Source: a virus. Taken from it: a stretch of 46,821 nt of DNA. Shown piece by piece: positions 6,797 to 20,856 of this stretch. Each line of letters begins with the position of its first letter. Position 1 is the first letter of the stretch. The stretch lies in the IMG/VR virus record IMGVR_UViG_3300046791_000097, positions 1 through 46,821 of that record. One strand, written 5' to 3'. The translations under genes and the position numbers were made by a program. Under the pieces are notes generated by a model. That model was not told the origin of the DNA. It saw only the letters and a program-made list of their open reading frames with translations, and made no database searches.

Positions 6797-9118
6797 CTAG
6801 TTGCTCTGCCATGGCTCCATATCCCTCCAGTTCTTAGACGACCACTTCACACCAACGGGAAGGCTCACTCCGAGTTCTTCCCGTTTTCTTTGTAGTACCT
6901 CAAGGCATGCGACAATTGCTCCATCGCGGAGTTCGGGCGATTCCGGTACCTCCGTAAGCGCTTCATCATGGACAGTGGCAAGTATCGCTCCGCCATGTCG
7001 AGTAAGGCAGGCGTCCAGCGAATAAAAGTCAGACCAGACCACATCGGCTGCCGTGCTTTGCGGGAGGTAGTCGAGCGCCGCCGCGCGGTCTTTGCCTTTG
7101 TCGTAGAAGTAGCGGACTCTTTCATATGGGTTCCTCAAGAAGCGCTGCGCCTTGGCCGTGTTCGCTACATGCGCACGCCATGCCCACAGGGTAGGGTAGT
7201 TCGCGGCCAACTGGGCCTGCATGTACTTGCACTCCTTTAACGTGGTCTTGACTCCACGTGCGCGGAGAGCATGCTGTAGCGCTCCCGGTCCACCACCGTA
7301 TAGAGTGCCGTACACAATGTTCTTAGCTCTTGTTCTATCGCAGCCCAGCCGCTCCATAACTCGCTCAAATATACCCAGTTCCAAGTCATCGCTGAGAGCG
7401 CGGTCCCCGCTAAGAGCAGCAGCAATTCGCAACTCAAGCTGTTTGAAATCGAATGAAACAAGAACCATGCCGGGTCTGGGGATGACGATATAACGAGCGT
7501 CGGGCGGGAGTTGTTGGATGTTTGGATCACGTGCCTGAATTCTGCCGGTCCCGGCCATTCCTTTACCAGTATCTTCATCGTCCGAGTCTTTTGAGACGGG
7601 TAGGTAATATGGATGTACGCAGCCATCGTCGCTGGGTCCTTTCTTCGCGTAAGACGACAAGAGTTTGTCGTTCTTCTTGTACTCAATCAGGCACTCAAGC
7701 GCAGGGCGGTAGGGACTGTCTGCTTCTAGGTCGGCCAGCAACTCATACAGAGCACTACGCTCTGTCGTCGCCGTGCCCGACTTCCGCTGTCGCTTCAGCG
7801 GCAGGCCCCAGTCCCCGTAGAGTAGCTTCACTAGCTGCTGAGGCGAGCCGGGCTCACACTTCGTAGTGAACGTACTCCATGTCTGAAGTAGTTCCCCCTG
7901 CCTGTTGGTCAGTCGCCCCAACCACTCCCCGCGAGCCGCGTCGTCGATAAGCAGACCACGCTTGGTCATGCGGGTGAGTACGCGTAGGGCAGGCATCATG
8001 GTGTTGTTGAATAACTTCTCCATCCCCTGCTCGCGGAGGAGTTCGCTCAGTATCTCATACAACTCGAACTCGTACTTCGCATCCAACAGGTTATACTCAA
8101 CATCATCGTCGTCTGCCTTGTGCTTCCAGCGGGGCAGGTCTAAGTAGAGGGAGGCGACTTCGTTGAGCCCTTTGTAGAGGTCCGGTTGGAGTAATGCCGC
8201 AGCCAGCATCGTATCAAAGATAGGGCCGTCCCAACCCATACCATGCTCATCCAGCACACCAAGGTCAAACTGAGCGTTATGGGCCACCAGAGTACGACCG
8301 GGTACGCCCATCTCAGATAGAGTATTGGTGCGGCAGTTAGCAGTAAGTAGCTCAGTCCACGCAACAGGACTTCCCGTGTTGTCGCGTCCTGCCATACCGA
8401 TGCGTAGGTATGGAGCCGTTTCCACATCGACGACAAATGGACCGCCCATGCTTGGGACATAACTACCTCTGCCTTCCTTGTACTCTAGTGGCGGCCAAAG
8501 AGCACCTCGAAGAGCGCGTCCAATACGTTGCCAGTCCGCGTTGAAGGCAGGTAGGGGTTTACGTCCTGCCCGCATGACCCCAGCAGGGTGTAGCGCTGGG
8601 AGGATGAGTTCAACATTGCTTGGCAGTATTGATTCGCGTATGACGCGTACTTTTGCTGTGCGAGGGTCTCCGCGCTTAATCCCTTTGGCTTTGTTTCCGC
8701 TCTTGTACGTAGTTTGCGTAAGTACAGTAACCGCGAGCGGTAGGCACTCGCTCGGTTTGACAAGGTACCCGCGCCACGATGCAATTCCTTCAGCAAGGCC
8801 AGTAGACGCGGTGAGGGCTGTACTTCCGAGCGGTACGACAATTCGCCCTCTAAATGCAGCAACAGCTTTCTCAAATGCCGGGCGGAAACGCGTAATCTGT
8901 TCTGCACTGGGTTCTCCGTTCTTCTTTAGTGGCCATTCGCCGATCACATTGACAATGTAACAGTCTGCGCGGGTGATCCCCGCATCTAGCGCAATCTCCC
9001 AGAGCAGGGACCCGGAACCACCCACGAAGGGCATCTCCTGCTCTAGCTCCTCACGCCCGGGAGCCATGCCGATAACCATGATGGGTGCGTTAGGATCACC
9101 CCATACCTGACAACTCAT
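6797..9118 (-). CDS. DNA polymerase I (family A) with N-terminal uracil-DNA glycosylase-like domain
   Basis: 773 aa. Residues about 1-205 match the family 4/5 uracil-DNA glycosylase fold: GMAPGREE, PFVGGSG, and LPALHPAGV near the domain end; the cysteine set of iron-sulphur UDGs is not evident. A DnaQ-type 3'-5' exonuclease follows (FVVDVET near 228, HNAQFD near 283, then FDTMLAA). Polymerase motifs are A (SFDFKQLELR, about 555), B (RTRAKNIVYGTLYGG, about 600) and C (ATVHDEALTEV, about 717). All key acidic residues are present, so it should be an active proofreading replicase, possibly sensing or excising uracil. Its start overlaps the upstream gene by ATGA; it ends the minus-strand replication operon. 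Confidence 0.9.
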   Translation of the reverse strand: MSCQVWGDPNAPIMVIGMAPGREELEQEMPFVGGSGSLLWEIALDAGITRADCYIVNVIGEWPLKKNGEPSAEQITRFRPAFEKAVAAFRGRIVVPLGSTALTASTGLAEGIASWRGYLVKPSECLPLAVTVLTQTTYKSGNKAKGIKRGDPRTAKVRVIRESILPSNVELILPALHPAGVMRAGRKPLPAFNADWQRIGRALRGALWPPLEYKEGRGSYVPSMGGPFVVDVETAPYLRIGMAGRDNTGSPVAWTELLTANCRTNTLSEMGVPGRTLVAHNAQFDLGVLDEHGMGWDGPIFDTMLAAALLQPDLYKGLNEVASLYLDLPRWKHKADDDDVEYNLLDAKYEFELYEILSELLREQGMEKLFNNTMMPALRVLTRMTKRGLLIDDAARGEWLGRLTNRQGELLQTWSTFTTKCEPGSPQQLVKLLYGDWGLPLKRQRKSGTATTERSALYELLADLEADSPYRPALECLIEYKKNDKLLSSYAKKGPSDDGCVHPYYLPVSKDSDDEDTGKGMAGTGRIQARDPNIQQLPPDARYIVIPRPGMVLVSFDFKQLELRIAAALSGDRALSDDLELGIFERVMERLGCDRTRAKNIVYGTLYGGGPGALQHALRARGVKTTLKECKYMQAQLAANYPTLWAWRAHVANTAKAQRFLRNPYERVRYFYDKGKDRAAALDYLPQSTAADVVWSDFYSLDACLTRHGGAILATVHDEALTEVPESPELRDGAIVACLEVLQRKREELGVSLPVGVKWSSKNWRDMEPWQSN

Positions 9119-15508: not shown

Positions 15509-15582
15509 TGGAGCGGGCAGTGGGATTCGAACCCACGCTAGGACGTTGGCAACGTACGGTGCTACCACTACACCATGTCCGC
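15509..15582 (-). tRNA. tRNA-Gly(GCC)
   Basis: Cloverleaf with acceptor GCGGACA/TGCCCGC (one mismatch), loop TTGCCAA, T-loop TTCGAAT and encoded CCA. Last tRNA of the minus-strand array. Confidence 0.93.
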
Positions 15583-15585
15583 AAA

Positions 15586-15659
15586 TGGAGCGGGTAGCGA
15601 GACTCGAACTCGCTTCTTCAGCTTGGAAGGCTGAGGCACAGCCTATATACCATGCCCGC
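15586..15659 (-). tRNA. tRNA-Gly(TCC)
   Basis: Acceptor GCGGGCA/TACCCGC, anticodon stem TCAGC/GCTGA around loop CTTCCAA, T-loop TTCGAGT, encoded CCA. Three bases separate it from tRNA-Gly(GCC). Confidence 0.93.
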
Positions 15660-15660
15660 A

Positions 15661-15846
15661 TTACTTATAATGTATGTATCCTGCCGTGAGTAGTATAAGC
15701 AAAAGAGTGAGTAACCATGCACCAAGCAAGGCGCTTAGTTTATTGCCTCTCCGCCACTCATCTACGACAAAGGCAAGCGTAATACTAACTATGGTACAAA
15801 GTATACCCAATACACCGATGGTAAGCAGAACATTATCTAGTTTCAT
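15661..15846 (-). CDS. Small two-span membrane protein
   Basis: 61 aa. Two hydrophobic spans (VLLTIGVLGILCTIVSITLA and ALLGAWLLTLLLILLTAGY) are separated by a charged hairpin DEWRRGNK. The ATG at 15846 follows GGAGG with five-base spacing. It is wedged between tRNA-Thr(CGT) and tRNA-Gly(TCC). Perhaps a host-membrane-modifying or superinfection protein; no family recognised. Confidence 0.7.
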   Translation of the reverse strand: MKLDNVLLTIGVLGILCTIVSITLAFVVDEWRRGNKLSALLGAWLLTLLLILLTAGYIHYK

Positions 15847-15860
15847 CATCTCCTCCAAGA

Positions 15861-15934
15861 TGGAGCTACGCCAGAGAATCGAACTCTGTCCCCGGAGTTA
15901 CGGGCTCCGTGCTCGACCTTCGAGCTAGCATAGC
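15861..15934 (-). tRNA. tRNA-Thr(CGT), C33
   Basis: Acceptor GCTATGC/GCGTAGC, anticodon stem CGGAG/CTCCG with loop CCCGTAA, so base 33 is C instead of U. T-loop TTCGATT; CCA encoded. Confidence 0.85.
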
Positions 15935-15937
15935 AAA

Positions 15938-16045
15938 TGTGGGGGCTTGTGCCGGATCAGTGGGAACGCTGGTAGATGCACCACTAAAGCCCGGTTGTCC
16001 GTGTCCAGTCCCTAGGACCGGGCATTGACCCCAACAACAGAGGCC
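15938..16045 (-). ncRNA. Structured interval in the tRNA array (element A), not a clear tRNA
   Basis: About 105 bases lie between tRNA-Asp and tRNA-Thr(CGT). On the minus strand GGGGCCT near the 5' end can pair with AAGCCCC near the 3' end, and GCCCGGT/ACCGGGC forms an internal stem. No TTCRA T-loop or seven-base anticodon loop was found. It may be a decayed tRNA or another small RNA. Confidence 0.3.
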
Positions 16046-16054
16046 CCTCTAAAA

Positions 16055-16130
16055 TGGCAGCGCTCACGGGACTTGCACCCGCAACCTTGGCCTTGACAGG
16101 GCCGTGTTCGCCTATTCGAACTCCAGCGCT
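16055..16130 (-). tRNA. tRNA-Asp(GTC)
   Basis: Acceptor AGCGCTG/GAGCGCT, D-stem GTTCG/CGAAC, loop CTGTCAA, G73, encoded CCA. The T-loop is TGCAAGT rather than TTCGAAT, a divergence from the norm. Confidence 0.8.
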
Positions 16131-16139
16131 ACAGAAATA

Positions 16140-16214
16140 TGGCAGGTCGATAGCACCCGCTACGGTGGCTACCAAGGAGCGATTAGCGTCCCTCCCGTCT
16201 AGACTCACCTGCCA
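16140..16214 (-). ncRNA. Structured interval in the tRNA array (element B)
   Basis: A 75-base segment closed by a perfect eight-base stem TGGCAGGT/ACCTGCCA, containing a strong hairpin (GGTAGC/GCTATC with ACC/GGT). Its length is that of a tRNA but no T-loop or anticodon loop can be fitted. Beside it (16222-16256) CCCACA/TGTGGG closes another hairpin. Confidence 0.35.
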
Positions 16215-16263
16215 ATATAACCCACACAAGGGCATGGATAGCTGATTCATGTGGGAGCAATTA

Positions 16264-16339
16264 TGGAGCCGCATGTGGGATTCGAACCCACCCCCTCTCG
16301 CTTACAGGGCGAGCGCACCACCATAGGTGCTTACACGGC
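16264..16339 (-). tRNA. tRNA-Thr(TGT), C33
   Basis: Acceptor GCCGTGT/ATGCGGC with two wobble pairs, anticodon stem CTCGC/GCGAG, loop CCTGTAA (C at 33), T-loop TTCGAAT, encoded CCA. Confidence 0.88.
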
Positions 16340-16342
16340 AAA

Positions 16343-16418
16343 TGGAGCTACCCGTGGGATTCGAACCCACTACCACGATCTTACCGGGATCGTACACATC
16401 CGTATGTGCTTCGGTAGC
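16343..16418 (-). tRNA. tRNA-Thr(GGT), C33
   Basis: Acceptor GCTACCG/GGGTAGC, anticodon stem CGATC/GATCG, loop CCGGTAA (C at 33), T-loop TTCGAAT, encoded CCA. Confidence 0.88.
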
Positions 16419-16422
16419 ATGA

Positions 16423-16498
16423 TGGGTGCAGTGATGGGACTTGAACCCACTAGGACCAACTTGAAAGGTTGGTTGCGTGACCCTTTGCATTCACTGCA
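16423..16498 (-). tRNA. tRNA-Glu(TTC)
   Basis: Perfect acceptor TGCAGTG/CACTGCA, anticodon stem CCAAC/GTTGG, loop CTTTCAA, T-loop TTCAAGT, encoded CCA. Discriminator C is unusual for Glu. Confidence 0.88.
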
Positions 16499-16505
16499 AC
16501 AAAGA

Positions 16506-16590
16506 TGGTAGGTCTGGAGGGAGTCGAACCCACACGCCGTGAGGCATTGGTTTCTAAGACCAACGTGGCTGCCAGTTACACCACAGACCC
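16506..16590 (-). tRNA. tRNA-Leu(TAG)
   Basis: 85 bases, class II with a long variable arm. Acceptor GGGTCTG/CAGACCT, anticodon stem TTGGT/ACCAA, loop CTTAGAA, A73, encoded CCA. Confidence 0.92.
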
Positions 16591-16596
16591 ACAAGA

Positions 16597-16674
16597 TGGT
16601 AGACAAGGTGGGAGTCGAACCCACAAGCAGCGAGGTTTGAACTCGCTAGGTTTTCCAGTTTCCGTCACTCGTCC
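16597..16674 (-). tRNA. tRNA-Leu(CAA), short variable arm
   Basis: Acceptor GGACGAG/CTTGTCT, six-base anticodon stem AGCGAG/CTCGCT around TTCAAAC, T-loop TTCGACT, A73, encoded CCA. The variable region has about five bases instead of the class II arm expected for Leu. The DUF7695-like gene stops inside its 5' end. Confidence 0.8.
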
Positions 16675-16838
16675 ACAAATTCTATCTGTTCCTCGGTATG
16701 TTCCTTGAGGTATCCATAGCGGGTGTACTCGTTCCCGCCATCTACGAAGATCATACCGCACTTACAACTTACGAAATCGTGTGTGTACTTCGACTCAATA
16801 ACGTCGTTGCAACTTTTACAGCGAAGCCTGCGTCCCAC
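16665..16838 (-). CDS. DUF7695-like zinc-knuckle protein
   Basis: 57 aa from a GTG at 16838. The sequence contains RCKSCNDVIESKYTHDFVSC, then KCGMIFVDGGNEYTRYGYL, a pattern I recognise from small phage and bacterial proteins (two Cys pairs, then IFVDGG). The four cysteines likely bind zinc. The stop codon lies ten bases inside tRNA-Leu(CAA). Function of the family is unknown; the match is from memory. Confidence 0.75.
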   Translation of the reverse strand: MGRRLRCKSCNDVIESKYTHDFVSCKCGMIFVDGGNEYTRYGYLKEHTEEQIEFVDE

Positions 16839-16846
16839 GATTTCGC

Positions 16847-17017
16847 CTATTCTCCAATGTCAAGGTTGTGTCTGCGGCACCAAGAAACTATCTTGCGCCA
16901 ATCACCTACCCTGCAAGATGTTCCATACGGGTTATCTGTAAGTCCATTTGTGGCTGCCTCCATCACTAGTTCTGCCAGTTCTTGAAGCGCAGCCTCGTCC
17001 ACATCCTCTTGCCACAT
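16847..17017 (-). CDS. Small acidic hypothetical protein
   Basis: 56 aa, starting MWQEDVDEAALQELAELVME, acidic and helical, with a basic C-terminal part (DWRKIVSWCRRHNLDIGE). The ATG has AAAGG five bases upstream. It lies between tRNA-Leu(TAA) and the DUF7695-like gene, eight bases before the latter's GTG. No family recognised. Confidence 0.65.
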   Translation of the reverse strand: MWQEDVDEAALQELAELVMEAATNGLTDNPYGTSCRVGDWRKIVSWCRRHNLDIGE

Positions 17018-17033
17018 ATGCGCCTTTCGATGT

Positions 17034-17111
17034 TGGTGCCCCCGGAAGGATTCGAACCTTCACTGTGGGAGGTTTAAGCTCCCTGCCTCTGCCGGTTGGA
17101 GCTACGAGGGC
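17034..17111 (-). tRNA. tRNA-Leu(TAA), short variable arm
   Basis: Acceptor GCCCTCG/CGGGGGC, anticodon stem GGGAG/CTCCC, loop CTTAAAC, T-stem GAAGG/CCTTC with TTCGAAT, A73, encoded CCA. The five-base variable region is class I-like, unusual for Leu. Confidence 0.85.
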
Positions 17112-17115
17112 AAGA

Positions 17116-17189
17116 TGGAGATGCCTCCGCGAATCAAACGCGGGTGGGCGGGTTTGCAAGCCGCCGCCTAGTCACTCGGCCAAGGCATC
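17116..17189 (-). tRNA. tRNA-Cys(GCA)
   Basis: Perfect acceptor GATGCCT/AGGCATC, loop TTGCAAA, T-loop TTTGATT, encoded CCA; the anticodon stem has one C-C mismatch next to the loop. Confidence 0.85.
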
Positions 17190-17193
17190 AAGT

Positions 17194-17265
17194 TGGTAGC
17201 CGGTACGGGACTCGGACCCGTTGGACTGTGGTTATGAGCCACTGTTGCGCACCTACGCACCGGCA
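17194..17265 (-). tRNA. tRNA-Met(CAT)
   Basis: Acceptor TGCCGGT/ACCGGCT with a T-T first pair, stem GTGG/CCAC, loop CTCATAA, A73, encoded CCA. The anticodon stem lacks the GGG/CCC of bacterial initiators, so elongator Met, or Ile if lysidinylated. Confidence 0.82.
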
Positions 17266-17271
17266 ACAAAT

Positions 17272-17356
17272 TGGTGTGGGATGTAGGGATCGAACCTACT
17301 GTATCCGAAGACGGGAGTTTTACAGACTCCTGCCCTGCCATTAGGGCCTATCCCAC
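17272..17356 (-). tRNA. tRNA-Tyr(GTA)
   Basis: 85 bases, class II. Perfect acceptor GTGGGAT/ATCCCAC, stem GGAGT/ACTCC, loop CTGTAAA, A73, encoded CCA. The epimerase gene ends 16 bases inside its 5' end. Confidence 0.93.
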
Positions 17357-18303
17357 AAATCGGTATTCATTGTCAACCAGTAATGTGTTCGCTCTAGTCC
17401 CTCGTCAAGCCCAACGTGTGGGCGCCAGCCGAGGTCTTCGCGTATCTTTGAGATGTTGAGACAGCGCCGGGAGATTCCATCTATCTCGCGGGGAGGGGTT
17501 GGCCAGAACGATAGCTTGCCCGCCACATGTCCCACCTTAACACAGAGCGCTGTGCCAGTGGTCTCGATGCCTGTTCCAACATTGTAAACCTTGCCATCTG
17601 CTTCCGTATGCGTTGCTGCGCAGATTGTCGCATCCACCACATCGGATACATAGGTGTAGTCCCTTGTGTCCTTAGCGCCGTACAACTCAAACTTCTGGTC
17701 GAGCAGCGCCGCCGCGAATGCCTTGGCTACGACTCCTGCATATGGGTTGTCGGGTCGCTGGCCCGGGCCGTACACGTTGGAGTAGCGCAGGCACGTCACC
17801 GGGAACATCCACTTGCGTCCCGCCGCGAGCAAAATCTGTTCTGCCGCCGCCTTGCTGCCCGCGTATGGGCTCTCTGGCTTCAATGGGTCGTCTTCGGGCG
17901 TTGGGATGTTGAGGGCGTTGCCGTAGACGGACGCACTAGAGGCAAATACGAGTTTGGTACCTCGCTCGCGGCAGCCCTGCGCCAACTCGTAGGCTCCACG
18001 CACGTTTGTTTCGAAGTCGGCATCAGGTGAACTTGCAGAAACCAGCAAGTTCCGGCAAGCAAGATGATAGACCACATCAGCCCAATCAAGCAAATCCCCA
18101 TGATCGCGCCGAACATGTTCCACCGAGCCGCGGAAGAGTCTAACGCTATTCCCCGTCGCATCCTTATCCCCTGCTACGTAGATGTTAGATAGCTTTCCAG
18201 TGAAGCAGTTGTCCAGTACACGAACCTCATCGCCGCGACGGACAAGAGCCTTCGCCAGCCGCGAGCCAATGAAGCCGAGCCCACCAGTAACTAATGCCTT
18301 CAC
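17341..18303 (-). CDS. NAD-dependent epimerase/dehydratase (extended SDR)
   Basis: 320 aa from a GTG at 18303 preceded by AGGAGGAGAA; the longer frame upstream is discarded. Rossmann nucleotide-binding motif TGGLGFIG at residue about 7, active-site SSASVYG (about 120), YAGSK (Tyr-x3-Lys, about 142), then LRYSNVYGPGQ,  DYTYVSDVVDA and YNVGTG, as in UDP-glucose 4-epimerase and dTDP-glucose 4,6-dehydratase relatives. It would act on a nucleotide sugar in the cytoplasm, perhaps for surface or virion glycans; a GT2 glycosyltransferase lies at 36.7 kb. It sits between tRNA-Lys(CTT) and tRNA-Tyr, its stop being inside the latter. Confidence 0.88.
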   Translation of the reverse strand: MKALVTGGLGFIGSRLAKALVRRGDEVRVLDNCFTGKLSNIYVAGDKDATGNSVRLFRGSVEHVRRDHGDLLDWADVVYHLACRNLLVSASSPDADFETNVRGAYELAQGCRERGTKLVFASSASVYGNALNIPTPEDDPLKPESPYAGSKAAAEQILLAAGRKWMFPVTCLRYSNVYGPGQRPDNPYAGVVAKAFAAALLDQKFELYGAKDTRDYTYVSDVVDATICAATHTEADGKVYNVGTGIETTGTALCVKVGHVAGKLSFWPTPPREIDGISRRCLNISKIREDLGWRPHVGLDEGLERTHYWLTMNTDLWDRP

Positions 18304-18316
18304 TTCTCCTCCTAAT

Positions 18317-18392
18317 TGGTACGCACCCCGGGCCACGATCCCGGATCGGACGGTTTAAGAGACCGCCATTCTGCCAATTGAACTAGGCGCGT
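18317..18392 (-). tRNA. tRNA-Lys(CTT)
   Basis: Acceptor ACGCGCC/GGTGCGT, stem GCGGT/ACCGT, loop CTCTTAA, A73, encoded CCA. T-loop ATCGTGG is atypical. Confidence 0.85.
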
Positions 18393-18402
18393 ATAAGACA
18401 TT

Positions 18403-18476
18403 GGGGAGCGCTCTACTGTGTTGAGCTAAGCACGCCATTGGATGCGTGCCTCGGATTAGAACCGAATCTCTCCCCC
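18403..18476 (-). tRNA. Candidate permuted tRNA gene (3' half precedes 5' half)
   Basis: In the direction of transcription the locus reads: anticodon-stem 3' strand (GGGGGAG), T-arm TTCGG-TTCTAAT-CCGAG, acceptor GCACGCA, T73 and CCA (18476 down to 18439). Then come two bases, then acceptor GGCGTGC, D-arm GCTC/GAGC and CTCCCC (18436 down to 18403). The halves pair in both the acceptor (six of seven) and anticodon stems. Intact tRNAs abut on both sides, so neither half has a normally placed partner. The anticodon is not defined. It is either a permuted gene or the remnant of a tandem duplication. Confidence 0.5.
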
Positions 18477-18479
18477 GCT

Positions 18480-18554
18480 TGGAACCCCCGGCGAGAATCG
18501 AACTCGCACTATCCGGCTTAGAAGACCGGTGCCACGTCCTTTGTGGACGGGGGT
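18480..18554 (-). tRNA. tRNA-Arg(TCT)
   Basis: Perfect acceptor ACCCCCG/CGGGGGT, stem CCGGT/GCCGG, loop CTTCTAA, T-loop TTCGATT, encoded CCA. Confidence 0.92.
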
Positions 18555-18557
18555 ACA

Positions 18558-18631
18558 TGGTGCCTCCAGTGGGGTTTCAACCCACGTCACTCCGCTTAAA
18601 AGGCGGGTTCTCTCCCTTGAGCTACAGAGGC
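18558..18631 (-). tRNA. tRNA-Lys(TTT)
   Basis: Acceptor GCCTCTG/TGGAGGC, stem CCGC/GCGG, loop CTTTTAA, A73, encoded CCA; T-loop TTGAAAC departs from consensus. A Cys-rich ORF stops inside it. Confidence 0.9.
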
Positions 18632-18781
18632 ATAAGATGTTGGATACTCTGCTGGTACTGCTTGCCATGCGATCAACTGAGCATCGCTCGCGGGCGATCT
18701 ATTATGGTCCGGGCACTTGCAGTACTTGTACAACATGCCACACACGGTGCAGTCTGTGGTGCACATTGGACAATTGCACAT
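18596..18781 (-). CDS. Small Cys-rich protein overlapping tRNA-Lys(TTT)
   Basis: 61 aa from an ATG at 18781 with a strong AGGAGG site. The N-terminus packs seven cysteines into about 25 residues (MCNCPMCTTDCTVCGM... then YCKC), a probable zinc-binding knot. The last ~12 codons run 36 bases into tRNA-Lys(TTT), so transcript processing would cut the reading frame. No family recognised. Confidence 0.6.
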   Translation of the reverse strand: MCNCPMCTTDCTVCGMLYKYCKCPDHNRSPASDAQLIAWQAVPAEYPTSYASVAQGREPAF

Positions 18782-18795
18782 TGCTCCTCCTACTA

Positions 18796-18867
18796 TGGGC
18801 TCCCCGGTGGGACTCGAACCCACAAACCGCTCGTTAGGACCAAGCGTAACGTCCGTCGTGCGGGGAG
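18796..18867 (-). tRNA. tRNA-Arg(CCT)
   Basis: Perfect acceptor CTCCCCG/CGGGGAG, stem CGCTTG/CGAGCG, loop GTCCTAA, T-loop TTCGAGT, encoded CCA. Confidence 0.9.
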
Positions 18868-18978
18868 AAATGCGCGTTCTAGGTGGCCAGTTATTCCCCG
18901 GCAGGAGCCACTCCACGGCATACCGGGCCAGATGTTCGCTTGCAAACGCGCGTGGCGAACCCACGGACCTGTACAGTT
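18868..18978 (-). other. Structured inter-tRNA interval (element C)
   Basis: 111 bases between tRNA-Gln(CTG) and tRNA-Arg(CCT) without a convincing ORF or tRNA. It contains a GTTCGC/GCGAAC stem, a TGGCC/GGCCA stem and a GGAG-TGG-CTCC hairpin. Function unknown. Confidence 0.3.
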
Positions 18979-19053
18979 TGGTTGCTCAAGCAGGATTCGA
19001 ACCTGCACCCAATGCTTCAGAGGCATCTGGCCTACCAGTTAGCCTATCGAGCA
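18979..19053 (-). tRNA. tRNA-Gln(CTG)
   Basis: Perfect acceptor TGCTCGA/TTGAGCA apart from one wobble, stem GATGC/GCATT, loop CTCTGAA, T-loop TTCGAAT, A73, encoded CCA. Confidence 0.9.
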
Positions 19054-19058
19054 ACAAA

Positions 19059-19145
19059 TGGCGGAAGCGCGAGGGATCGAACCTCGGCGTGACATGCACG
19101 GCTTAGGTTTAGCAAACCTACTCCTTACCGCTCGGACACGCTTCC
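19059..19145 (-). tRNA. tRNA-Ser(GCT)
   Basis: 87 bases, class II. Perfect acceptor GGAAGCG/CGCTTCC, stem TAGGT/ACCTA, loop TTGCTAA, G73 as expected for Ser, encoded CCA. Confidence 0.93.
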
Positions 19146-19155
19146 ATTGTACTAT

Positions 19156-19230
19156 TGGATTCGGGAGCAGGATTCAAACCTGCATCTTGGTGGTTCAAAG
19201 CCACCCGTCCTATCGTTAGACGATCCCGAA
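19156..19230 (-). tRNA. tRNA-Gln(TTG)
   Basis: Perfect acceptor TTCGGGA/TCCCGAA, stem GGTGG/CCACC, loop CTTTGAA, T-loop TTTGAAT, encoded CCA. Confidence 0.92.
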
Positions 19231-19236
19231 ACAAGA

Positions 19237-19311
19237 TGGTCACTCGTGCGGGACTCCAACCCGCGTCTCTGGCTTGAGGGGCCAGCGTGTTAGGCACTGC
19301 ACTAACGAGTG
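19237..19311 (-). tRNA. tRNA-Glu(CTC), C33
   Basis: Perfect acceptor CACTCGT/ACGAGTG, stem CTGGC/GCCAG, loop CCCTCAA with C at 33, T-loop TTGGAGT (atypical), A73, encoded CCA. A 50-aa ORF stops inside its 5' end. Confidence 0.85.
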
Positions 19312-19454
19312 AGAAGTGTTACTGAACCTGTTGCTTTGATGGAGCGTAGGCGTTTCTTTTCGAGCGCCTGTACGACCTCCAACATTGTATCTGCTGCGAA
19401 AACCTCACAGGTATTGTCCATGAACGTCACGGTGTACTCTAACAGTTTGCGCAT
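19302..19454 (-). CDS. Small hypothetical protein
   Basis: 50 aa, beginning MRKLLEYTVTFMDNTCEVFA and ending in KATGSVTLLTR: a strand-helix-strand pattern. The ATG at 19454 follows AAAAGGA, within eight bases of the preceding gene's stop. Its last ten bases lie in tRNA-Glu(CTC). No family recognised. Confidence 0.65.
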   Translation of the reverse strand: MRKLLEYTVTFMDNTCEVFAADTMLEVVQALEKKRLRSIKATGSVTLLTR

Positions 19455-19462
19455 ACGTCCTT

Positions 19463-19639
19463 TTACTCCTCCACTACTGGTTGCTCCGATGCTGGCTGAT
19501 TCTCAAATGCGTCTGCTAGTCTACCAAACCAGTCCAGAACATACTTTCCGTCTTTCATTTGATGTGCTCCATACGCAGATGCATTGCCGATTAGTGCCTT
19601 GTGTAGATCATCACGCCTGACTGGGATAAGATCGGCCAT
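19463..19639 (-). CDS. Small acidic hypothetical protein
   Basis: 58 aa, MADLIPVRRDDLHKALIGNA..., with a helical C-terminus ending QPVVEE. The ATG at 19639 has GAGG five bases upstream. It follows tRNA-Arg(ACG) by 17 bases and is coupled to the next 50-aa gene. No family recognised. Confidence 0.65.
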   Translation of the reverse strand: MADLIPVRRDDLHKALIGNASAYGAHQMKDGKYVLDWFGRLADAFENQPASEQPVVEE

Positions 19640-19803
19640 GTAATCCTCACAGAGATGGTCGCCCTCGCGGGAGTCGAACCCGCAACCTGTGCGTTCGTAG
19701 CGCATTGCACGTCCATTTGTGCTTCAGGGCGAAAACGTGGATCGAACTGCATAAACTCTGGATAGATACCGTAGAAGATCATATCGGTAAAACTCAGTTT
19801 CAT
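19591..19803 (-). CDS. Small ORF reading through a whole tRNA gene
   Basis: 70 aa from an ATG at 19803 with GGAGG four bases upstream. The first 28 residues (MKLSFTDMIFYGIYPEFMQF...) look protein-like; the remainder is a translation of the entire tRNA-Arg(ACG) gene plus part of the next gene. The start signals are strong, so translation is likely unless tRNA processing removes the message; the native stop may have been lost when the tRNA was inserted. Confidence 0.45.
   Translation of the reverse strand: MKLSFTDMIFYGIYPEFMQFDPRFRPEAQMDVQCATNAQVAGSTPARATISVRITWPILSQSGVMIYTRH
19656..19731 (-). tRNA. tRNA-Arg(ACG)
   Basis: Perfect acceptor CGCCCTG/GAGGGCG but one mismatch, loop CTACGAA, T-loop TTCGACT, A73, encoded CCA. 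A34 would need deamination to inosine. It lies inside a 70-codon ORF. Confidence 0.9.
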
Positions 19804-19815
19804 GCATCCTCCATA

Positions 19816-19886
19816 TGGCGCAGCGTGTAGGAGTCGAACCCACGATGGCAAGTTTTGGAGGCTCGCCTGTGCCCAGCACTCACTGC
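19816..19886 (-). tRNA. tRNA-Trp(CCA)
   Basis: Acceptor GCAGTGA/ACGCTGC, anticodon stem CGAGC/ACTTG with a C-A pair by the loop CTCCAAA, T-loop TTCGACT, G73 as expected for Trp, encoded CCA. Confidence 0.85.
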
Positions 19887-19889
19887 AAT

Positions 19890-19961
19890 TGGTGGACCAG
19901 TCGGGAGTTGAACCCGCGAGGCTTCCTTGCAAGGGAAGCATGTTGCCCGCAACACAAGCCC
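19890..19961 (-). tRNA. tRNA-Ala(TGC), divergent acceptor
   Basis: Anticodon stem CTTCC/GGAAG with loop CTTGCAA and T-arm GGG-TTCAACT-CCC are clear, and CCA is encoded. The 5' end is less sure: GGGCTTG/CTGGTCC pairs with two wobbles and one mismatch. The G3-U70 identity pair of Ala can form. Confidence 0.75.
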
Positions 19962-20031
19962 AAGAATCAGTCCGATGGTTTTTTCACTGGAGCCCCACTT
20001 AAGGGGTCGGACGCCTTCGCCAGCTTTCTTA

Positions 20032-20107
20032 TGGTGTGTCCTCATGGAGTCGAACCATGTTAACCGGGGTTTCAATCCGGTGCTATGACCGCACTAGCTC
20101 AAGACAC
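20032..20107 (-). tRNA. tRNA-Phe(GAA)
   Basis: Acceptor GTGTCTT/AGGACAC, loop TTGAAAC on a CCGG/CCGG stem, T-stem CATGG/CCATG with TTCGACT, A73, encoded CCA. The 70 bases on its 3' side hold a CCCC/GGGG hairpin but no gene I trust. Confidence 0.88.
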
Positions 20108-20111
20108 ATGA

Positions 20112-20189
20112 TGGTAGTCTCGCCGGGAGTCGAACCCGCTCTTGGCGATGTATAAGATCGCTGCCCTCTACCGGTGGGCGAGCGAGACA
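20112..20189 (-). tRNA. tRNA-Ile(TAT)
   Basis: Acceptor TGTCTCG/CGAGACT (first pair T-T), stem GCGAT/ATCGC, loop CTTATAC, T-loop TTCGACT, A73, encoded CCA. Confidence 0.88.
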
Positions 20190-20191
20190 GA

Positions 20192-20276
20192 TGGAGGAGA
20201 GTGTAGGATTCGAACCCACGTAGCCGTAGCCTCACCCGGGTTCAAACCGGGCGCATTACCGCTCTGCCAACTCTCC
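20192..20276 (-). tRNA. tRNA-Ser(TGA)
   Basis: 85 bases, class II. Perfect acceptor GGAGAGT/ACTCTCC, stem CCCGG/CCGGG, loop TTTGAAC, T-loop TTCGAAT, encoded CCA. Confidence 0.92.
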
Positions 20277-20280
20277 AAAA

Positions 20281-20355
20281 TGGGGTGACAGGCCGGACTC
20301 CCACCGGCTATGAGAGCTTCACAGGCTCCCTGTTCGAGTCTTCACACTCTGTCAC
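20281..20355 (-). tRNA. tRNA-His(GTG)
   Basis: Perfect acceptor GTGACAG/CTGTCAC, stem GGAGC/GCTCT, loop CTGTGAA, C73 typical of His, encoded CCA. No G-1 is encoded (T precedes G1); T-loop TGGGAGT is atypical. Confidence 0.87.
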
Positions 20356-20370
20356 ACTTGTGCTGCAAGA

Positions 20371-20444
20371 TGGTAGTCAGTCGGGGAATCGAACCCCGCT
20401 AGCTTGCTTGTAAGGCAAGTGCATTGCCACTGTGCTAACCGACT
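20371..20444 (-). tRNA. tRNA-Val(TAC)
   Basis: Acceptor AGTCGGT/ACTGACT, stem CTTGC/GCAAG, loop CTTACAA, T-loop TTCGATT, A73, encoded CCA. Confidence 0.93.
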
Positions 20445-20450
20445 ACAAGA

Positions 20451-20526
20451 TGGTAGGGATTGTGAGAGTCGAACTCACGACCTCCTGCTCCCAAGGCAGG
20501 CGGATTGACCGCTATCCTAAACCCCT
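20451..20526 (-). tRNA. tRNA-Pro(TGG)
   Basis: Acceptor AGGGGTT/AATCCCT, stem CCTGC/GCAGG, loop CTTGGGA, T-loop TTCGACT, A73, encoded CCA. Confidence 0.93.
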
Positions 20527-20533
20527 ACAAAGA

Positions 20534-20602
20534 TGGTGCCCGATAGGTGACCCCTTAAGGCGTTCGGGCGCGACACCTGCGAACCGAGAGTTTGCAGCTC
20601 CC
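20534..20602 (-). ncRNA. tRNA-like element with CCA end (element D)
   Basis: The 3' end reads ATCGGGC-A-CCA followed by the same TCTTTG linker as real tRNAs, and pairs with GCCCGAA only 18 bases upstream, giving a mini acceptor helix. Further 5' is GGGAG-CTGCAAA-CTCTC, shaped like a Cys(GCA) anticodon arm. No full cloverleaf forms. Confidence 0.35.
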
Positions 20603-20610
20603 GATAAATA

Positions 20611-20686
20611 TGGTATGTGAGTACGGAGTCGAACCGTAACCTTCCGCGTATCAGGCGGACGCGCAGAACCGCTACACCACGCACAT
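20611..20686 (-). tRNA. tRNA-Ile(GAT)
   Basis: Acceptor ATGTGCG/CTCACAT, stem TCCGC/GCGGA, loop CTGATAC, T-loop TTCGACT, A73, encoded CCA. Confidence 0.91.
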
Positions 20687-20691
20687 ACAAG

Positions 20692-20767
20692 TGGCTGACC
20701 CAGTGGGATTCGAACCCACATCTCCAAGCTTAACAGGCAAGTGTCTTACCAATTACACCACAGGTCA
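20692..20767 (-). tRNA. tRNA-Asn(GTT)
   Basis: Acceptor TGACCTG/TGGGTCA, loop CTGTTAA on a CTTGC/GCTTG stem with two T-T mismatches, T-loop TTCGAAT, G73 usual for Asn, encoded CCA. Confidence 0.85.
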
Positions 20768-20774
20768 ACAATAT

Positions 20775-20846
20775 TGGTGCCCCCGGCCGGACTCGAACCG
20801 GCGTCGGCGAGGTTCGGAACCTCACCCTTGTCCTATTAGCGGGGAC
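20775..20846 (-). tRNA. tRNA-Arg(CCG)
   Basis: Acceptor GTCCCCG/CGGGGGC, stem TGAGG/CCTCG, loop TTCCGAA, T-stem GCCGG/CCGGC with TTCGAGT, A73, encoded CCA. First tRNA of the array, just downstream of a promoter. Confidence 0.9.
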
Positions 20847-20856
20847 GCAACTTCAG

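Follow-up and report, generated by a model that had tools for sequence, protein, structure and literature searches.

What kind of RNA is encoded where the 3′ half of a tRNA precedes its 5′ half, between two intact tRNA genes of a virus? The question is raised by IMGVR_UViG_3300046791_000097, a 46,821-base IMG/VR record of an uncultivated virus, the whole of which is the window analysed here. The record encodes a family A DNA polymerase, a Sak4-like protein, a helicase-like ATPase, a terminase, a portal and a major head protein; at 6797-9118, an N-terminal uracil-DNA-glycosylase-like domain is fused onto DNA polymerase A. ARAGORN, Rfam and reading by eye place the tRNA array that hosts the element at 15509..20847 on the minus strand.

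ARAGORN counts 27 tRNAs in the array, to which Rfam adds some more, and atypical Asp, Glu(ttc), Met, Trp, His and Arg-like tRNAs are seen in the gaps by eye and with relaxed ARAGORN. All but one of the 27 end in CCA (26/27), and position 33 is U in 23 and C in the remaining 4, which are the Thr(cgt, tgt, ggt) and Glu(ctc) tRNAs at 15861-15934, 16264-16339, 16343-16418 and 19237-19311. Mismatches in stems are common among the intact tRNAs of the array. In one gap, 20527-20610, a Cys-like anticodon hairpin is accompanied by GCCCGA/TCGGGC-ACCA, which pair like an acceptor, but there is no normal cloverleaf.

Layout of the element

The element (18403-18476, minus strand) occupies an 87-nt gap (18393-18479) that runs from the CCA of the upstream tRNA-Arg(tct) (18480..18554, minus strand; Rfam RF00005, 41.7 bits) to the first base of the downstream tRNA-Lys(ctt) (18317..18392, minus strand; RF00005, 45.9 bits). 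A preliminary description of this DNA had reported a 3′ half ahead of a 5′ half, flanked on both sides by intact tRNAs and with no normally ordered partner gene beside it, and all of this is present, both neighbours being recognised by ARAGORN as well as Rfam; the two bases that it placed after the CCA are two or three, depending on the register of the acceptor stem.

In the direction of transcription, 3 nt separate the CCA of tRNA-Arg(tct) from the 3′ half (18439..18476, minus strand). This half consists of the 3′ strand of the anticodon stem, GGGAG (18474-18470), a variable region, a T-arm (18466-18450), the 3′ strand of the acceptor stem in one of two registers (18450-18444 or 18449-18443) and an encoded CCA (18441-18439). 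A linker of 2-3 nt (18436..18438, its extent set by the register) leads to the 5′ half (18403..18436, minus strand), with the 5′ acceptor strand (18435-18429 or 18436-18430), a D-arm (18426-18410) and the 5′ strand of the anticodon stem, CTCCC (18408-18404). Both halves are read from the sequence and from the circular ARAGORN structure, the 5′ half also from a permuted-tRNA finder. The 10 nt that remain before tRNA-Lys(ctt), AATGTCTTAT (18393..18402), resemble other spacers of the array such as the ATCTTAT before tRNA-Lys(ttt).

The pairing between the halves in acceptor and anticodon stems, also proposed earlier, is borne out by circular ARAGORN and by the finder, which gives the element a score of 20 with 7 acceptor, 5 anticodon, 4 D and 4 T pairs. 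The stack of acceptor and T-stem has 11 bp, not 12, with either a 4-bp T-stem or a 7-bp acceptor that includes a G1.A72 mismatch. The usual GG is missing from the D-loop, which may weaken the elbow contact of the element.

Evidence for permutation

When the 87-nt gap is given to ARAGORN as a circle and an intron is permitted, the program returns a tRNA in which all four stems pair. Across the array, this occurred in only 1 of 12 gaps tested, that of the element, and the scans of the other 11 revealed no second permuted tRNA. The same search found a tRNA in 1 of 20,000 dinucleotide shuffles and in none of 16,460 tiles from outside the array. Furthermore, when halves of different array tRNAs were combined, none of the 702 ordered pairs reached at least 6 acceptor and 5 anticodon pairs. 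Because halves of different array tRNAs never pair this well, these controls together with those of circular ARAGORN show that the element is circularly permuted and that both halves belong to one tRNA.

The shuffle, tile and half-pairing controls rule out a chance origin of the layout; as for mis-assembly, a simple join error does not produce a circular permutation. A covariance model of rotated tRNAs (R1) was set aside because ordinary tandem tRNAs score as high on it as the candidate.

Relatives of the virus

Two syntenic relatives were identified, L002 (helicase-like protein, 40%) and L131 (Sak4-like protein, 52%). The polymerase, exonuclease and terminase retrieved no relatives when used as queries. 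Both share the tRNA order Gln, Ser, Gln, Arg(tct), Lys, Tyr (some tRNAs of L131 were read by eye). The layout of the element, which the preliminary description had proposed to look for in related phages, is absent from both, and Arg(tct) is followed directly by Lys. An exact-pattern search of the viral contigs yielded no close copy, and DNA similarity to phage isolates amounted to weak matches to tRNA halves. As far as can be seen, the element is specific to its lineage. Its two halves have their best total score with one and the same tRNA, the tRNA-Thr(ggt) of L002, albeit weakly. What looked like a candidate permuted gene in that relative (L002:8553-9110) is an ordinary tRNA-Leu whose variable arm is long.

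Permuted tRNA-like genes in other viral DNA

Is this arrangement confined to one virus? The 120 stretches of a pattern scan for tRNA-like T-arm/CCA/D-arm spacing in viral DNA were filtered with a custom finder and circular ARAGORN, excluding overlap with intact tRNAs; finder matches with such an overlap are tandem isoacceptors and not permuted genes. Nine loci passed, namely the element in the window, seven convincing others and a doubtful one (L071), and none passed in three shuffled sets and a reversed set. With L074, added from a scan of gaps, there are about eight other permuted tRNA-like genes in the surveyed viral contigs. A permuted intron-exon arrangement of a group I intron was dropped as their cause, since Rfam found no such intron at these loci.

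Most of these loci resemble YrlA (Rfam RF02553), a bacterial Y RNA whose crystal structure superposes on tRNA via circular permutation (PMC11472068) and whose tRNA-like module comprises a T-arm, an acceptor-like hairpin and a D-arm, with its ends at the anticodon side (PMC11472068, PMC8394870). Rfam matches YrlA at L037, L066, L073, L087, L095 and L033 weakly, with 32-39 bits (E 5e-5 to 4e-3), which is below the gathering score of 69. An outer stem is significant in L066, L073 and L074, a Ro60-like vWA/DUF2828 protein is encoded near the loci of L073 and L095, with a kinase-phosphatase-RNA ligase also near the latter, and the genome of L066 encodes a TROVE protein. The positive control, Mycobacterium phage Phabba (NC_054714), likewise encodes a TROVE protein and contains an unannotated YrlA match of 40.1 bits inside its tRNA array, a permuted tRNA-Asp(GUC)/YrlA-like gene (L149:1484-1560; about 93,866-93,942 of Phabba). 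The YrlA-like permuted loci are most simply read as Y RNAs, that is, as tRNA mimics. A permutation-aware search, as first proposed, does recover the element along with other viral loci. The preliminary remark that no phage case is established needs amending: permuted tRNA-like YrlA RNAs have been reported in mycobacteriophages (PMC12282133) and are present in Phabba and several of the surveyed phage contigs.

One locus stands closer to the element. At L019:1674-1757, a second permuted element lies in a tRNA array, directly after the CCA of a Met-like tRNA, with perfect stems and no YrlA match (a separate YrlA match lies elsewhere in that record). The two may form a second, Ro-free class, although two cases are too few to claim one. 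The contig of L019 also encodes an RNA ligase (phrog_968).

What the element may be

The element in the window has the topology of a Y RNA, and a YrlA match, a basal stem and a Ro partner are absent. In its circular ARAGORN structure it shares with YrlA the permuted module of T-arm, closed acceptor stem and D-arm. Unlike YrlA, it has no basal Ro/Rsr-binding stem and no Ro-like gene in its record, and it starts 3 nt after a tRNA. Its score against RF02553 is 15.3 bits (gathering score 69), at the background level of the controls and in an alignment that uses the T-arm of tRNA-Arg; within its 46.8 kb, the possibly incomplete record showed neither TROVE nor DUF2828.

I tentatively favour the view that the element is a gene for a permuted tRNA-like RNA, a tRNA mimic and not a decoding tRNA, whose candidate function would be that of a look-alike, for instance a decoy or binding platform for tRNA-handling enzymes or nucleases. 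Under this proposal, the gene goes back to an array tRNA with a weak resemblance to tRNA-Thr, which underwent tandem duplication followed by loss of the outer halves. An RNA of about 87 nt would come free once tRNA-Arg is matured at its CCA and tRNA-Lys at its 5′ end, and it is predicted to fold into an L-shaped tRNA-like body with free ends at the anticodon position and a small loop closing the acceptor, which is the topology of the YrlA effector module. The circular ARAGORN match with its controls, the failure of foreign halves to pair as well and the shared best match of both halves to tRNA-Thr(ggt) of L002 argue for a mimic, as does the recurrence of the topology in viral contigs, mostly with YrlA matches and, at L019, without one. 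That it is a mimic and not a decoding tRNA is suggested by an A at position 33 in simple joins and no readable anticodon, against U33 or C33 in all 27 array tRNAs. The missing YrlA match, outer stem, Ro-like gene and conserved copy, and the D-loop without GG, argue against it.

The main rival, and a serious one even if I consider it rather doubtful, is that the element is a recent, functionless relic: a tandem-duplicated tRNA lost its outer halves, and the 3′ half of one copy now adjoins the 5′ half of the next. This would account for the lack of a readable anticodon and of U33, the acceptor/T stack one base short, the D-loop without GG and the absence of the element from both syntenic relatives. 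However, all four stems are still fully paired whereas many intact tRNAs of the array have mismatches, and two independent losses would need to end within the same anticodon loop. Decay is not the only alternative to a mimic. Were the element a true permuted tRNA gene, processing of the neighbours would free the ends, a host RNA ligase would circularise the RNA, and RNase P and RNase Z would excise the linker to leave a decoding tRNA. The topology is correct for this and a CCA is encoded after the acceptor strand, as in 26 of the 27 array tRNAs. Simple joins of the halves place A at position 33 and give no convincing anticodon. The exact 87 nt closed end to end read U33-AGC in ARAGORN, but with a 9-nt insert that would need to be removed, and a CCA anticodon loop arises from a join that overlaps the end of tRNA-Arg and uses that tRNA's own CCA, though 7.7% of shuffles yield one too. 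Beyond the anticodon stem, the flanks form neither a bulge-helix-bulge-type helix nor an outer basal stem: their duplex, at -9.6 kcal/mol, is weaker than the mean of -13.2 for shuffled sequences (p 0.88). Neither RtcB nor the RNA_ligase family has a match in the record; a search for the T4 Rnl1 family came back empty as well, but its controls were equally silent, so it proves nothing. Thus, the maturation by joining at the anticodon loop that was first envisaged fares poorly, the element is unlikely to be a decoding tRNA, and I regard a true permuted tRNA gene as improbable.

Comparison with known permuted genes bears on this alternative and on one further. The circularly permuted tRNA genes of algae and Thermofilum, of which 34 were known in 2014 (PMC3978253), likewise have the 3′ half before the 5′ half and a short intervening stretch from the CCA side to the 5′ end. 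The element differs from them in its encoded CCA and its bacterial-virus context, and in lacking a bulge-helix-bulge and a clear anticodon. Alternatively, RNase P and RNase Z might cut at the acceptor end and leave two halves annealed and unligated. I know of no ordinary tRNA in such a two-piece form. The anticodon stem that would hold the pieces together is merely 5-6 bp with tails, which makes this reading very improbable in spite of the encoded CCA and short linker at the acceptor end. Its precedent is the bacterial two-piece tmRNA, derived from permuted genes (PMC10085705), in which the acceptor end is made, as it would be here, by processing of an internal loop. In contrast to tmRNA, the element has a canonical D-arm and no tag-coding region, and no tmRNA covariance model matches its locus.

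If the element is functional, permuted tRNA-like RNAs that do not belong to the Ro/Y RNA system can reside in phage tRNA arrays, where they escape annotation tools. If it were a true permuted decoding tRNA gene, it would be, to my knowledge, the first in a bacterial virus, and one without a bulge-helix-bulge.

A possible origin of Y RNAs

The other permuted loci also bear on where Y RNAs come from. When the halves are joined after position 28, a perfect anticodon arm results for L037 (1755-1874; Lys UUU), L095 (3970-4080; Ile GAU) and Phabba (Asp GUC), and the halves of L074 give one when joined after 29 (Ser UGA). ARAGORN accepts the joined sequences of L037, L095 and Phabba as normal tRNAs; for each locus taken alone, 1-6% of shuffles reach a perfect-anticodon join. 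Since joining restores perfect anticodon arms, this suggests that permutation of tRNAs at one place gave rise to these Y RNAs. The permuted genes of Phabba, L037 and L095 still hold a complete tRNA broken at 28/29, which makes such an origin testable: Y RNAs would be circularly permuted tRNAs, and phages may be where the permutation still happens. At L066:8971-9741, in a tRNA-rich phage, a ROOL RNA ends 34 nt before the permuted YrlA-like gene.
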